A DNA stretch of 18,373 nt from assembly GCA_016840645.1 (NCBI GenBank), contig JAEORY010000025.1, positions 1 through 18,373 on the forward strand. Reading direction: 5' to 3'. The position numbers and the translations under genes are program-made. Positions 388-13,876 of this stretch are shown piece by piece (position 1 is the first letter of the stretch; each line of letters begins with the position of its first letter). The notes under the pieces are model-generated. The model was not told the DNA's origin. It made no database searches and worked only from the letters and a program-made list of their open reading frames with translations. Source of the DNA: Candidatus Borrarchaeota archaeon. GTDB lineage: Archaea; Asgardarchaeota; Sifarchaeia; Borrarchaeales; Borrarchaeaceae.

Positions 388-521
388 TTTGGTAGAGAAA
401 TGTGCCATTTTTTTAAGAGTGCTTTGCAATTCTCTCATTACGAAGTGCATATGTATTAAGTTAAAGTAATAACTTTTTTCTTTAAGAATATGAAGAATTG
501 AAGGAGTCAGTATGTGAACTA

Positions 522-541
522 CCACCCAACAAGTTAGGTGG
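522..541 (-). repeat. Right-end hairpin of the 330-bp element
   Basis: Inverted repeat CCACC...GGTGG immediately inside the terminal TAGTTCAC of the element. In the IS200/IS605 group this hairpin is the right-end recognition structure and also the 3' end of the omega RNA, with the guide being the flanking DNA beyond TTCAC (513 downward on the minus strand). Confidence 0.65.
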
Positions 542-805
542 CTTCTGTCCTCCTAGACTGTTCTGCTTAGTCAACACGGTTGGTCACATTCAGCCTAGTC
601 ATCGACAGTTCGGGCTGGTCCACAGCAGCCCCCGTCCCTCAAGGGACACTTGAGGTCCGACAGTACCCTCATCGGTACTATGTCTTGTGTACGCTCCCAA
701 CGCCAAGCCAGACACCTCGGCATACTGCACACTGAGATGGTAGCTAACTGCTATTTAAGTGTTAGGGAGAGCTATGTGAAAGTGAAACCCTCTACCGCAA
801 TTCAT

Positions 806-825
806 CCCCCCAACACGTTGGGGGG
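806..825 (-). repeat. Left-end hairpin of the 330-bp element
   Basis: Perfect 9-bp stem (CCCCCCAAC / GTTGGGGGG) around a two-base loop, 17 bases inside the TTTAT target flank. The position matches the left-end hairpin of the tnpB element at 13781-13801. Confidence 0.7.
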
Positions 826-903
826 TCTTCTTGCGAATTGGTTATAAAAAGGAGTAAGAAATTCTTAAATTGGTAAATAAACATAAGTTTATCGGTGGTT
901 TAC

Positions 904-1553: not shown

Positions 1554-1734
1554 CCAGTTCACCAAAATGCATAAATCTTCAGTTTTAGTATGAAATAGCC
1601 AATGACCTATCGCAGTGTCTTTTAGCCTTTTATTCATTTCTTCATTTTATCGAAATTTCGCAAGAAAACCCTTCAACTTGTTGGGTGTTAGTTCACACTA
1701 TTAATCCATTTTGCACTATGAGAAAAGAGAGAGC
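1494..1734. repeat. Diverged direct repeat, copy 2, carrying a 46-nt insertion
   Basis: Second copy of the repeat at 194-387, at an exact offset of 1300 bp on its left side. Outside the coding fragment it keeps blocks such as CCAGTTCACC, GACCTATCGCA and TTAATCCATTTTG. At 1651-1696 it holds extra DNA that is absent from copy 1. Confidence 0.85.
1651..1696 (+). mobile_element. 46-nt micro-insertion with fused IS200/IS605-type left and right ends
   Basis: The insert follows TTTAT. It begins with 17 bases ending in CGCAAGAAA, as in the left end of the 330-bp element, and finishes with AACTTGTTGGGTGTTAGTTCAC read in two parts (AACTTGTTGGG and TGTTAGTTCAC), nearly identical to that element's right end. 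Removing it restores a sequence collinear with copy 1 of the surrounding repeat. The simplest reading is an internal-deletion derivative in which the left and right hairpins have merged into one imperfect hairpin (ACCC...GGGT). Its orientation is opposite to the 330-bp element. Confidence 0.7.
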
Positions 1735-1838: not shown

Positions 1839-3572
1839 ATGAAGACTTCTGATTTAATCAGCCAAAAAATGCGCCGAAAGGCTTCAGAAATCGACAGTCT
1901 TCGTCTAGGTTGTGGATGGACTGAAGATGATCTTGACAAACCATGGGTTCTTGTTGATTCTGTTGAAGGACAAAGTCATCCAGGTTCTGTACATCTTGGT
2001 TTAATTGGAGATGATGTGATAACAGGAATCGTAGCAGCGGGAGGAACTCCTGCAAAGTACTATGTTACTGACACTTGTGATGGAATCTCTCAAGGCACCC
2101 CTGGTATGAGTTATAGTCTTCCCAGCCGAGAATTCATTTCATTTGCAGTAGAGATGCATGCAAAAACTGGACATTTTGACGCAATGGCACTAGTTAGTAG
2201 TTGTGATAAATCGATTCCTGGGCATTTGATGGCCGCAGCGCGACTTGATCTGCCTACCATCATCATCCCTGGAGGCGTAGAAGAAGTGGGACCTCATTGG
2301 ATGACCCTAGAACAGGTAGCCACTTATGACTCACAGCGACGAAGAGGAAAGTTAAGTACAGAAAAATACCAGTTCTTGGCTAAATTCGGTTGCCCTACAC
2401 CTGGGGCGTGTGCCTTTATGGGAACTGCCTGTACGATGCAGATAATGAGTGAGGCATTAGGAATGGCACTCCCAACAAGTGCGTTAGCACTTTCAACCGG
2501 TTTCGAGATAACTAGGCTCGCACGTAAGGCAGGAAAACAAGTTTTGTACCTGATTGAACAAGGACTTTCTGCAGGAAAAATACTTACAAAAGAAGCATTT
2601 GAAAATGCAATAATGGTGCATGCTGCTATAGCTGGATCCACTAATGCATTATTACATATTATTGCGATAGCTGCTGAAAGGGGTATCGAGATAACTCATG
2701 ATGACTTTGATTTCATCAATAGGAGAATACCATATCTAACAAATATTCGACCTTCAGGTAGATACCCAAGTAGTTTCTTCTGGTATAGTGGTGGAACTCA
2801 ATTTGTAATGAAACAATTAATGGATCATATACATCTTGATACACTGACAGTTACCGGTGAAACGGTTGAAGAAAATATAAAGAACCTCGAAAAAGAAAAC
2901 TACTTTGAGAAGATAGCGACATATTTGGAGAACTATAAAGTCTCAAGAGATGATGTAATACGAACTAAATCAAACCCTTTCTCAGAAACAGGATCAATTG
3001 CGATATTGGAAGGAAATATAGCCCCTGAAGGTGCTGTAGTCAAAGTCACCGCAGTTGATCCTTCTATGCATAAATTCACTGGAAGAGCAAAAGTATTCGA
3101 TTCGCAAGATGACGCTGTAAAGGCAATTTTTGATGAAAAGATTGAGAGCGGGGATGCAGTAATAATCAGATACGAAGGACCAAAGGGAAGCGGTATGCCT
3201 GAACAGTTTTATGCAACCGAAGCCATCGCTTCTGATCCGAAGTTAAATGTTTCTGTTGCTTTGCTGACAGACGGACGTTTCAGTGGTGCCTCAAGAGGAC
3301 CATGCATCGGACATGTTTCTCCTGAAGCTGCAGAAGGCGGAACGATTGCTCTTTTAGATGACAACGACCTAATAGAGATAGACATACTAAGCAGACGTTT
3401 AGAGTTGGTAGGCGTACAAGGTCAAACTCTTAAATCAGAAGAAGTTACTAAAATATTAACTGAGAGAAAAAAAATGTGGAATCCACCGCAACGAAAGTTT
3501 ACAACAGGAATGTTAGCATTCTATACGCAGCATGCAACTTCAGCCAGTAAAGGTGGGCGTATGGAGTTGTAA
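1839..3572 (+). CDS. IlvD/Edd-family sugar-acid dehydratase (577 aa)
   Basis: Iron-sulfur dehydratase of the dihydroxy-acid/6-phosphogluconate dehydratase superfamily, full length. Conserved blocks are VTDTCDGISQGTPGMSYSLP (residues 76-95), SSCDKSIPGHLMAAARL (121-137), PGACAFMGTACTMQ (188-201), and LLTDGRFSGASRGPCIGHVSPEA in the C-terminal beta-barrel domain. Likely cluster ligands are Cys80, Cys122 and Cys191. The N-terminal PCN motif of dihydroxy-acid dehydratase is absent (HPGSVHL stands there), while Cys in CDGxxQG is a feature of Edd and of YjhG/YagF-type D-xylonate dehydratases. This argues against a role in branched-chain amino acid synthesis. The next gene encodes a KDG-type aldolase, so the likely reaction is dehydration of an aldonic acid to its 2-keto-3-deoxy form. 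A TGTGAT ribosome binding site precedes the ATG. Confidence 0.85.
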   Translation: MKTSDLISQKMRRKASEIDSLRLGCGWTEDDLDKPWVLVDSVEGQSHPGSVHLGLIGDDVITGIVAAGGTPAKYYVTDTCDGISQGTPGMSYSLPSREFISFAVEMHAKTGHFDAMALVSSCDKSIPGHLMAAARLDLPTIIIPGGVEEVGPHWMTLEQVATYDSQRRRGKLSTEKYQFLAKFGCPTPGACAFMGTACTMQIMSEALGMALPTSALALSTGFEITRLARKAGKQVLYLIEQGLSAGKILTKEAFENAIMVHAAIAGSTNALLHIIAIAAERGIEITHDDFDFINRRIPYLTNIRPSGRYPSSFFWYSGGTQFVMKQLMDHIHLDTLTVTGETVEENIKNLEKENYFEKIATYLENYKVSRDDVIRTKSNPFSETGSIAILEGNIAPEGAVVKVTAVDPSMHKFTGRAKVFDSQDDAVKAIFDEKIESGDAVIIRYEGPKGSGMPEQFYATEAIASDPKLNVSVALLTDGRFSGASRGPCIGHVSPEAAEGGTIALLDDNDLIEIDILSRRLELVGVQGQTLKSEEVTKILTERKKMWNPPQRKFTTGMLAFYTQHATSASKGGRMEL

Positions 3573-12330: not shown

Positions 12331-12395
12331 CGCTTTGAGTTTTTACAAAAGGAAGTTTCTCCTCTATCATAATTCCCAAAATTGAGAGTGAACTA

Positions 12396-12416
12396 CCTCA
12401 CGCTGAAGCGGTGAGG
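12396..12416 (-). ncRNA. Right-end hairpin, predicted 3' end of the omega RNA
   Basis: CCTCAC...GTGAGG stem just inside the terminal TAGTTCAC. The tnpB stop codon lies within this hairpin, the usual overlap of tnpB coding end with the guide RNA scaffold. The 5' limit of the RNA cannot be seen; only the conserved end is marked. Confidence 0.6.
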
Positions 12417-13696
12417 CTTCCTGCTTCGCCGACCAAACTTGCGGTGACATAGGGAATACGGTTGAGGTATTCCAGCGATGCCACCGTAGAGGATTCAGTC
12501 TCCACAGGCTTAACATCCCTACGTTCCGTAGGTACCAGGTGTGTTAACCCTTCGGTTTCGATATTAACACTTGAATTATGGTCTCTGTCCATTACTAACT
12601 CACAGACTGGACAGACGTACACACGTTCATCTAATCCTATGTTCCGGATATTTCCACAGCGTGAACAGGTTTTGGTGGAAGGAAACCATTTATCGACTTG
12701 GATCGGAGTATGCATCTTTCCTTCAAGTGTGCGTATGATCCCTCCGATGGCCGTTGATAGGATTTTCCTGCCCCATATGCGTTGCCAGGCCTTAAAACTC
12801 TCATCTTGGTAGCAGACCACCCCATAGTTCTCTTGCAGGTAATGCACCAGTTTGTGCTTAATATCCTGCTTAATATTGGTCAGCTTGGCATACGCGTTCT
12901 CCAGTTGGCGCTTGGTTTTATACCAGTTCTGGCTGCGAAATTGACACCTACTCAATTTCTGGTTCAATTTTCTTAACTTGTTTCTAATGGGTATGGCATA
13001 CTGGATGGCGATGCCATCTGACAGCGTTAACTGTGTTTTAATGCCGAAATCGATGCCCACCGTTTTTGTAGGGGGCGGGGTGTGTTCCCGCGTCTGGTAG
13101 GTGGTAATCGCCAGGAAGTAGTCGCCATGTCGCTGAATCAGGGTGGCATTGGCCAACTCACTGCCAGCAGGAATTTGCGCTAAGCCATTGACCCGCAGGT
13201 GTTGTGAAATGCCCTGTATCTTGAGATACTTATCATTCAGGATTTTGTAGGTATTGCCATATTGTTTCAAAGGAATAGACTTGACACAACTCCTGTATTT
13301 GAGGGGACCGATTTTATACCCCTTTTCTTTTAAGCGTGCCAGCCCTTTGATGTTATTGATGGTTCGCCTAATGAGACTCTGCTTCATATGTGAGGATAAG
13401 TAGCATAATTCACGGAGTTCAAAGCTATCCTTGACTTTGACTGGCACTGCAGCGAGTTTATAGTCCATAGCAAACACAGTAGGCTGCGAGAGAATATGGT
13501 TATACAGCCATTTGGCTTCCAGAAATAAATGCTTCAACTGTGCTAGTGTGTGCTGGTTAAGGTGGGAGCTGTCGAGTTTTACCTCAAACACCCGACAGCG
13601 TTGACGCTTGCGGCGCGCTTTAGTAGCTTTCAAGGTAGCTTTGATGGTTTCGCTTTTTGATGGTGCGGTCGGCACTCCCGTAATCACCTGTTGCAT
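12398..13696 (-). CDS. tnpB: TnpB, RNA-guided endonuclease of an IS1341-type element (432 aa)
   Basis: TnpB is the Cas12-like nuclease that uses RNA from the element's right end to cut DNA next to a short target-adjacent motif. The RuvC core is complete: Asp216 in VGIDFGIK, Glu299 in YQDESFKAW and Asp372 in DRDHNSSVNI. The zinc ribbon CSRCG/CPVC (Cys344, 347, 362, 365) is intact. The N-terminal part has the OrfB helical region (LFLEAKWLYNHIL). The C-terminal tail ending EAGSLTASA overlaps the right-end hairpin. No frameshift or stop is seen, so the nuclease may be active. Length is within the family range, with about 35 extra basic residues at the N-terminus. Confidence 0.93.
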   Translation of the reverse strand: MQQVITGVPTAPSKSETIKATLKATKARRKRQRCRVFEVKLDSSHLNQHTLAQLKHLFLEAKWLYNHILSQPTVFAMDYKLAAVPVKVKDSFELRELCYLSSHMKQSLIRRTINNIKGLARLKEKGYKIGPLKYRSCVKSIPLKQYGNTYKILNDKYLKIQGISQHLRVNGLAQIPAGSELANATLIQRHGDYFLAITTYQTREHTPPPTKTVGIDFGIKTQLTLSDGIAIQYAIPIRNKLRKLNQKLSRCQFRSQNWYKTKRQLENAYAKLTNIKQDIKHKLVHYLQENYGVVCYQDESFKAWQRIWGRKILSTAIGGIIRTLEGKMHTPIQVDKWFPSTKTCSRCGNIRNIGLDERVYVCPVCELVMDRDHNSSVNIETEGLTHLVPTERRDVKPVETESSTVASLEYLNRIPYVTASLVGEAGSLTASA

Positions 13697-13753
13697 GGTG
13701 TGAACTCCCCCGTGTTTTGAGGCGTCTTGCTGTTCCTATAACCTATCGTCAAC

Positions 13754-13767
13754 AAACTATATAAACC
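13754..13767 (-). promoter_or_regulatory. Box A promoter in the left end of the tnpB element
   Basis: GTTTATATAGTTTG on the minus strand is a near-perfect archaeal box A, about 60 bases before the tnpB ATG. The predicted transcription start is near 13735. Confidence 0.6.
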
Positions 13768-13780
13768 TCGCCCCATTCAT

Positions 13781-13801
13781 CACCACGCTGAAGCTGTGGT
13801 G
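13781..13801 (-). repeat. Left-end hairpin of the tnpB element
   Basis: CACCAC...GTGGTG stem with loop core AGCTTCAGC on the minus strand, followed by GATGAAT as in the left end of the 330-bp element at 514-843. Confidence 0.65.
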
Positions 13802-13876
13802 CTTTCTGGCTTAGTCATAGTAAGATTTTTAATGATTCCAAATGTTTGACTCATTGCTTTCAAATTCTAAACATGG

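Follow-up and report, generated by a model that had tools for sequence, protein, structure and literature searches.

The window, by which we mean the whole stretch of 18,373 nucleotides analysed here, comes from a Candidatus Borrarchaeota archaeon. It contains the following features, where LE and RE denote left and right element ends:

194 to 387, no strand assigned: copy A of a repeat, in which the unit is absent
514 to 843, minus strand: 330-bp relative of the unit, of the same family; TTTAT precedes it on the minus strand and its RE ends at 514
1494 to 1731, no strand assigned: copy B of the repeat, interrupted by the unit
1646 to 1650, plus strand: TTTAT target flank without duplication, also found in the empty site of L004
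1651 to 1696, plus strand: 46-nt terminal-only unit, LE (CGAAATTTCGCAAGAAAACCC...) joined to RE (...GGGTGTTAGTTCAC) via one chimeric hairpin
12388 to 13819, minus strand: TTAC-type IS200/IS605 element with tnpB, 1432 bp, lying in full within the window
12398 to 13696, minus strand: tnpB gene, with OrfB_IS605 and Cas12f1-like_TNB domains

The gene at 1839-3572, which we take to be a dehydratase, has its nearest relatives in three Candidatus Borrarchaeota records (89-94% identity), all from Asgard archaea: L001 (B. weybense), L002 (isolate Yap75.bin3.45) and L004 (B. yapensis, 270 residues matched). The corresponding genomes are G001, G002 and G003, and G178 is a further genome of the same phylum. 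Each of L001, L002 and L004 holds a single copy of the region that is repeated as A and B in the window. In its 3' part, copy B matches L004 (88% identity) better than it matches copy A (80%), while the 3' part of copy A is closest to L002 (83%). The similarities suggest that a plain recent duplication is improbable and that a segment may have been recombined or imported. Since the two copies have different nearest relatives, the empty sites of the relatives outweigh copy A as evidence. Between the two copies the window has an extra segment, in which 904-1346 hold a ParE-type toxin gene (1092-1346, PF05016) and, ahead of it, a short open frame that, by eye, may be an antitoxin.

The unit at 1651-1696 reads CGAAATTTCGCAAGAAAACCCTTCAACTTGTTGGGTGTTAGTTCAC and is 46 nt long, with TTTTAT before and ACTATT after it. 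Positions 1675-1697 are the reverse complement of 513-535 (96% over 23 nt), and 1632-1685 pairs with 809-862 at 74%. The element at 514-843 lies on the minus strand with its RE at 514 and its LE at 843; it is 97% identical to a G001 copy, and no open reading frame of at least 80 aa is listed within it. Judged by these letters, both ends of the 514-843 element are present in the unit, in opposite orientation. The initial annotation had described a 46-nt segment behind TTTAT, its start resembling the LE and its end the RE of this element; this description proved exact to the base. The unit has no terminal inverted repeat and a clean empty site. IS200/IS605 elements have a hairpin and a guide at either end; the unit has one single chimeric hairpin, and the RE guide motif GGAAGCC is absent from it. 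A search of the window against Rfam at gathering threshold gave no match.

In an alignment of copies A and B with L001, L002 and L004, the segment is present in copy B alone. L004 represents a perfect empty site (TTTTATACTATTAATCC), in which TTTTAT abuts ACTATTAATCC directly. No relative has a long element at this position; the site is empty in L001, L002 and L004 as well as in copy A. The lack of the piece at 194-387, on which the initial annotation had built its empty site, is therefore shared by all three relatives, and the segment is not ancestral in both repeat copies.

The further copies that had been suggested as a check exist: the same architecture was found at 46 other places in four genomes. 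Including the window there are at least 47 units, 22 of the TTTAT type (46-48 nt) and 25 of the TTAC type (42-54 nt), distributed over G001, G002, G003, G178 and the window, in a list that was compiled by hand and holds some degenerate copies and some that are one site in two genomes. TTTAT occupies the expected position in 14 of the 22 TTTAT-type units (background 0.29% per position, five offsets allowed) and TTAC in 22 of the 25 TTAC-type units (background 0.40% per position, four offsets allowed); 23 of the latter end in TAGTTCAC. The pattern CAAGAAN{8,38}TAGTTCAC gave 34 matches in three genomes versus 12 for the backward control, and nearly all matches fell in two near-identical sets. Loci L045, L047 and L055 were discarded as chance pattern matches, and L049 was kept out of both unit families.

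Further loci were found with two sequence-only models, R1 (TTTAT type) and R2 (TTAC type). R1 matched seven of 227 genomes of the phylum under strict filters and with the best 25 candidates per genome, so that weak copies may escape; full-length matches were obtained in G001, G002, G003 and G178, and partial ones in G179, G081 and G105. R2 was run on five genomes and matched four. Six loci were read in G081 (L150, L157, L164, L170) and G105 (L151, L158), and no terminal-only unit was seen among them. These six loci have a similar left end, TTTAT-spacer-CAAGAAGACCCC, and wherever both hairpins of a G081 or G105 element were found, the LE hairpin was unlike the RE hairpin. Two exact patterns had no match in viral contigs, in which five relatives of the window TnpB were detected (33-45% identity). 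In the openly licensed literature, with little of the search Asgard-specific, we found no report of such units in this group of Asgard archaea.

Evidence for the origin of the units comes from sites at which one genome has a unit and another a long element. The 1432-bp element of the window has the ends TATGACTAAGCCAGAAAGCACCACAGCTTCAGCGTGGTG (LE) and CCTCACCGCTTCAGCGTGAGGTAGTTCAC (RE). At the same site B. yapensis (G003) has a 47-nt unit, L253 (TATGACTAAGCCAGAAAGCACCACAGCTTCAGCGTGAGGTAGTTCAC), with 59 of 60 left-flank letters equal to those of the window element. Up to GCTTCAGCGTG, L253 follows the LE of the window element letter by letter, and from there on its RE, without any mismatch; GCTTCAGCGTG is an 11-bp repeat common to both end hairpins of the tnpB element. 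B. weybense (G001, L001) has kept the LE side of the element at this site (about 390 bp) and lost the remainder together with some flank, which makes the long form the older state. Corresponding pairs exist at two other sites, namely L042 (G001, 47 nt) versus a 257-bp element in G003 (L106), and L067 (G003, 46 nt) versus a 324-bp element in G001 (L108). That is, the long and short forms at three sites identify units as core-deletion remnants.

The RE hairpins of L042 and L106 belong to different subtypes. L136 (G001) and L282 (G003) are both long and align throughout the right flank and the body, with CCTACTTGTAGGGTGG versus ACAACTTGTTGAATGG as RE hairpin. This subtype switch in an otherwise matching element indicates that hairpins are replaceable locally while the element stays. 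Local hairpin conversion of this kind can explain the mismatch between L042 and L106, though it would add a step. The L023 site also differs in size, 331 bp in G001 versus about 1366 bp at G003:C106:24516-26084, going by coordinates only.

The course of events that we propose would begin with a longer element, either the 250-330-bp form or the 1.4-kb tnpB form, that inserts 3' of TTTAT without duplication of the target. Its LE and RE hairpins, whose loops and inner stems are nearly identical, would provide a short direct repeat, across which a slipped-strand or annealing deletion would take out the core and one repeat copy. Left over would be the LE cleavage flank and the LE spacer, then a hairpin with its 5' arm from the LE and its 3' arm from the RE, and finally the RE terminus TAGTTCAC. 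Slippage, not an enzyme, presumably made the deletion. For the unit family, the sequence comparisons support deletion between similar hairpins as the probable route. The initial annotation had considered that the window unit was left by an internal deletion, with similar hairpins at the two ends as its boundaries; this stands at the sister sites (L042, L067, L253) but lacks such a counterpart at 1651-1696, where the relatives are all empty. We regard it as very probable that 1651-1696 is a terminal-only core-deletion remnant of an IS200/IS605-type element. That this particular copy arose by deletion in place, and was not inserted already short, seems likely, with somewhat less assurance.

We also analysed how the units depend on a repeat shared by both ends. 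TTTAT RE types with 10-12 bp in common with the T-loop LE, together with variants of these RE types, are over-represented among the units; they account for 16 of 19 TTTAT units and for 43 of the 83 REs of long elements (Fisher p = 0.01; 103 rows of TTTAT elements with one unclear row omitted, units and long forms sorted by hand, some copies orthologous and not independent, and the search pattern built on the unit's own arm). The poorly matching TTTAT RE type, with 6 bp shared, was found in 3/19 units and 40/83 long REs. For the G-loop LE, the exact shared run was just 3-7 bp with every RE type. Among the TTAC-type units, 15 of 25 end in GCGTGAGGTAGTTCAC, the RE of the window tnpB element; among longer TTAC elements, an RE was present in the fetched stretch of 23, of which 18 end in TAGCTCAC and two in GCGTGAGGTAGTTCAC, while in about 18 further longer candidates no RE was found within 1.7 kb. 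The TAGCTCAC type has no more than 4 bp in common with the LE. Among the 3' arms of TTTAT units, TTGGGTGG is the most frequent (8/19 units), but it occurs in only 3/83 long elements. Because it is so rare in the latter, deletion needs a junction 3' of the loop, a correction of the arm, or a lineage of units.

To establish site occupancy, orthologous sites were searched by joined-flank queries for 19 + 16 units, plus the window, L253 and equal-flank sites. At 24 unit sites the state was resolved. At seventeen of them a relative has the empty site (the window, L052, L053, L054, L059, L060, L061, L062, L064, L065, L161, L198, L245, L246, L247, L252 and L258), with an inexact empty junction at L052, L053, L064, L161, L246 and L247. 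At three others a relative carries a long element (L042, L067, L253), and at four both genomes have the unit (L057/L202, L043/L259, L046/L172/L168, L148/L264). Outside the 24 lie, among others, L041, L044, L048, L050, L051, L063, L069, L070, L244, L250, L254, L257 and the complex region L256/L068. L257 is probably empty in G001 and occupied in G178 by other sequence of about 900 bp; L261 is probably shared.

Long TTTAT-type elements served as control. A 150-420-bp element was obtained at 26 of 42 loci, a range by which the longer tnpB forms are excluded, and 20 long loci were queried and judged from match coordinates (L015 and L026 were discarded as odd). Twelve are empty in the sister genome (L011, L013, L017, L022, L024, L030, L036, L039, L135, L139, L144, L145) and three are occupied (L023, L136, L138), whereas L014, L020, L033, L126 and L134 were queried and stand outside the count. 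Addition of L106 and L108 (long versus unit) and of L140/L141 (long in both, equal flanks) gave 18 resolved long sites. The empty fractions are similar, 17/24 for units and 12/18 for long elements. In a hand count of the TTTAT type in G001 and G003, units were at 8 young and about 6 old sites, and sampled long copies at 12 young and 7 old sites. Slow decay alone predicts a clearly smaller share of units at young sites; their share is not clearly lower there, and the numbers are far too small to decide.

The state of the hairpins and the supply of transposase bear on whether a unit could move. As single-stranded DNA, three units folded at -4.0, -3.5 and -2.9 kcal/mol, with z near 0 against shuffled sequences; the LEs of longer elements gave -12.9 (TTTAT type) and -7.5 kcal/mol and the REs -5.6 and -6.9 kcal/mol. 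Covariation of the hairpin arms in the unit alignments of both types gave no signal beyond shuffles. In the stem chosen for the TTTAT type, a C-T mismatch is present in nearly every row and a standard pair in 0/12 rows, and in the stem chosen for the TTAC type two outer pairs are unpaired in 8/13 and 9/13 distinct rows. The RE guide motif GGAAGCC is found in 2/47 units and absent in 45/47. We detected one full-length TnpA match (a 156-aa open frame with tnpB downstream) in each of G001 and G003, three more partial matches in G003, and no match in G002. Both full-length matches belong to an element with other hairpins.

At some old shared sites, hairpin arms had changed on both sides. L172 and L046 differ from L168 in both arms (ACCC/GGGT versus ACTT/AAGT) at one site shared by three genomes, and both arms changed together between L148 and L264. 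L057 and L202 have a perfect stem in one copy and an imperfect one in the other. Template-switch correction acts on imperfect palindromes, and the joint changes may result from it or from selection.

Spacers were compared as a further line of evidence. An identical spacer in a longer element exists for 7/22 TTTAT and 9/25 TTAC units (16/47 in total), and 38/89 TTTAT and 32/48 TTAC longer LEs share theirs with another longer LE (longer or unclassified matches), in a count that relies on exact patterns, possibly incomplete genomes and lists with some chance matches. By this count deletion in situ is not favoured, and mobility is not proven. Since most unit haplotypes thus have no identical longer parent in the lists, deletion in place at 1651-1696 becomes slightly less likely and insertion in short form slightly more so.

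The main competing explanation is that units were inserted already short, as one-hairpin elements of 46-48 nt that TnpA moves in trans and that would be near the smallest IS200/IS605 substrate; some of the 17 units with empty sites could have moved in this way. The similarity of the empty fractions of units and long elements speaks for it, as do the identical units L061 and L070, which lie in two genomes at places unrelated to each other. The spacer TAGTAGCTAAG was found in three LE matches, all of them units, two of which (L198 and L202) lie at unrelated sites. For 31/47 unit spacers the lists hold no identical longer counterpart, although these may be missing just because of incomplete genomes, drift or exact patterns. 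A candidate enzyme is also at hand in the full-length TnpA frames of G001 and G003. For Haloquadratum walsbyi, a 2011 report suspected that the 52-bp form is mobile but left the question undecided, and the strain-specific insertions of ISHwa23 were short in 6/6 cases (PMC3119063). Against insertion in short form stand the long/short pairs at three sites, which are deletions, the three fused hairpins that fold no better than shuffled sequence, the lack of covariation beyond shuffles, the 45 units without guide motif, and the different hairpins of the element that holds the full-length TnpA. Taken together, we consider insertion in short form unlikely, but still an account to be reckoned with. 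The idea of the initial annotation that the unit is an active minimal TnpA substrate is not borne out by the folding of these three hairpins and by the missing motif, while the spacer counts do not argue against it.

Two other explanations fare far worse. Short, single-hairpin and scattered copies are also what one would see if a REP-type palindrome had been spread by a domesticated RAYT transposase, and REPtrons resemble the units as single short palindromes in many copies (PMC8266576). In REPs a tetranucleotide stands in front of the palindrome, GTAG being the commonest; the 5' foot of the units is mostly GAAGACC or GAAAGC, without a GTAG-type tetranucleotide, and we therefore rejected REP membership (PMC8266576). 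In addition, the units differ in that they derive from both IS ends, which are the ends of full IS200/IS605 elements, and long forms occur at the same sites. A REP origin is accordingly very improbable. The joint arm changes at old shared sites (L172/L046 versus L168, L148 versus L264) would fit a functional non-mobile hairpin, e.g. a terminator, but such a hairpin, or a chance resemblance, does not account for clean empty sites with a recurrent TTTAT or TTAC flank. As an origin this explanation is refuted and has next to no probability left; later co-option of single copies is possible.

With core deletion as the preferred reading, Asgard archaea too follow the decay route of IS605-type elements that is known from a haloarchaeon, here with repeats down to 11 bp. 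One site with three states, the intact tnpB element, a truncated form and a 47-nt unit, provides a clean natural record of this decay. The units with empty sites are at the same time a test set for the mobility of a one-hairpin unit. If units were mobile in trans, one chimeric hairpin and both cleavage sites would be enough for TnpA, the units would be among the smallest transposable elements, and the Haloquadratum question of 2011 would be answered.

The units resemble IS200/IS605 elements, tnpB-only (IS1341-type) elements and their short derivatives in the subterminal hairpin, the oriented insertion 3' of a short target, the absence of target duplication and the right end TAGTTCAC; they differ in carrying a single hairpin, not two, and no gene. 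In solo LTRs, the core of an element is likewise lost by recombination between like ends. This is an analogy only, as they belong to another element class with much longer repeats. The closest counterpart, and a precedent for core deletion, is found in Haloquadratum walsbyi, where core deletions across two near-terminal palindromes of IS605-type elements and PATEs produced 52-bp terminal-only forms, one of which derives from a tnpB-bearing element about 1500 bp long (2011; PMC3119063). The Borrarchaeota units are the same kind of object as these terminal-only PATEs. Like core-deleted HqIRS46 and the 52-bp ISHwa23, they consist of about 50 nt of fused IS605-type ends with one near-terminal palindrome, related, as in PATEs, to IS605-type elements; repeat-mediated deletion, long and short forms at the same site and strain-specific short insertions are common to both (PMC3119063). 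Long forms at the same site are known for three other Borrarchaeota copies, while at 1651-1696 all relatives are empty. The units differ from PATEs in that they belong to another archaeal group and to other sequence families, with TTTAT and TTAC as targets. Their shared repeat is also shorter and imperfect, 11-12 bp at best, versus the palindrome repeats of 19-22 bp in Haloquadratum (PMC3119063), and the hairpin that remains in Borrarchaeota is therefore chimeric and mismatched.
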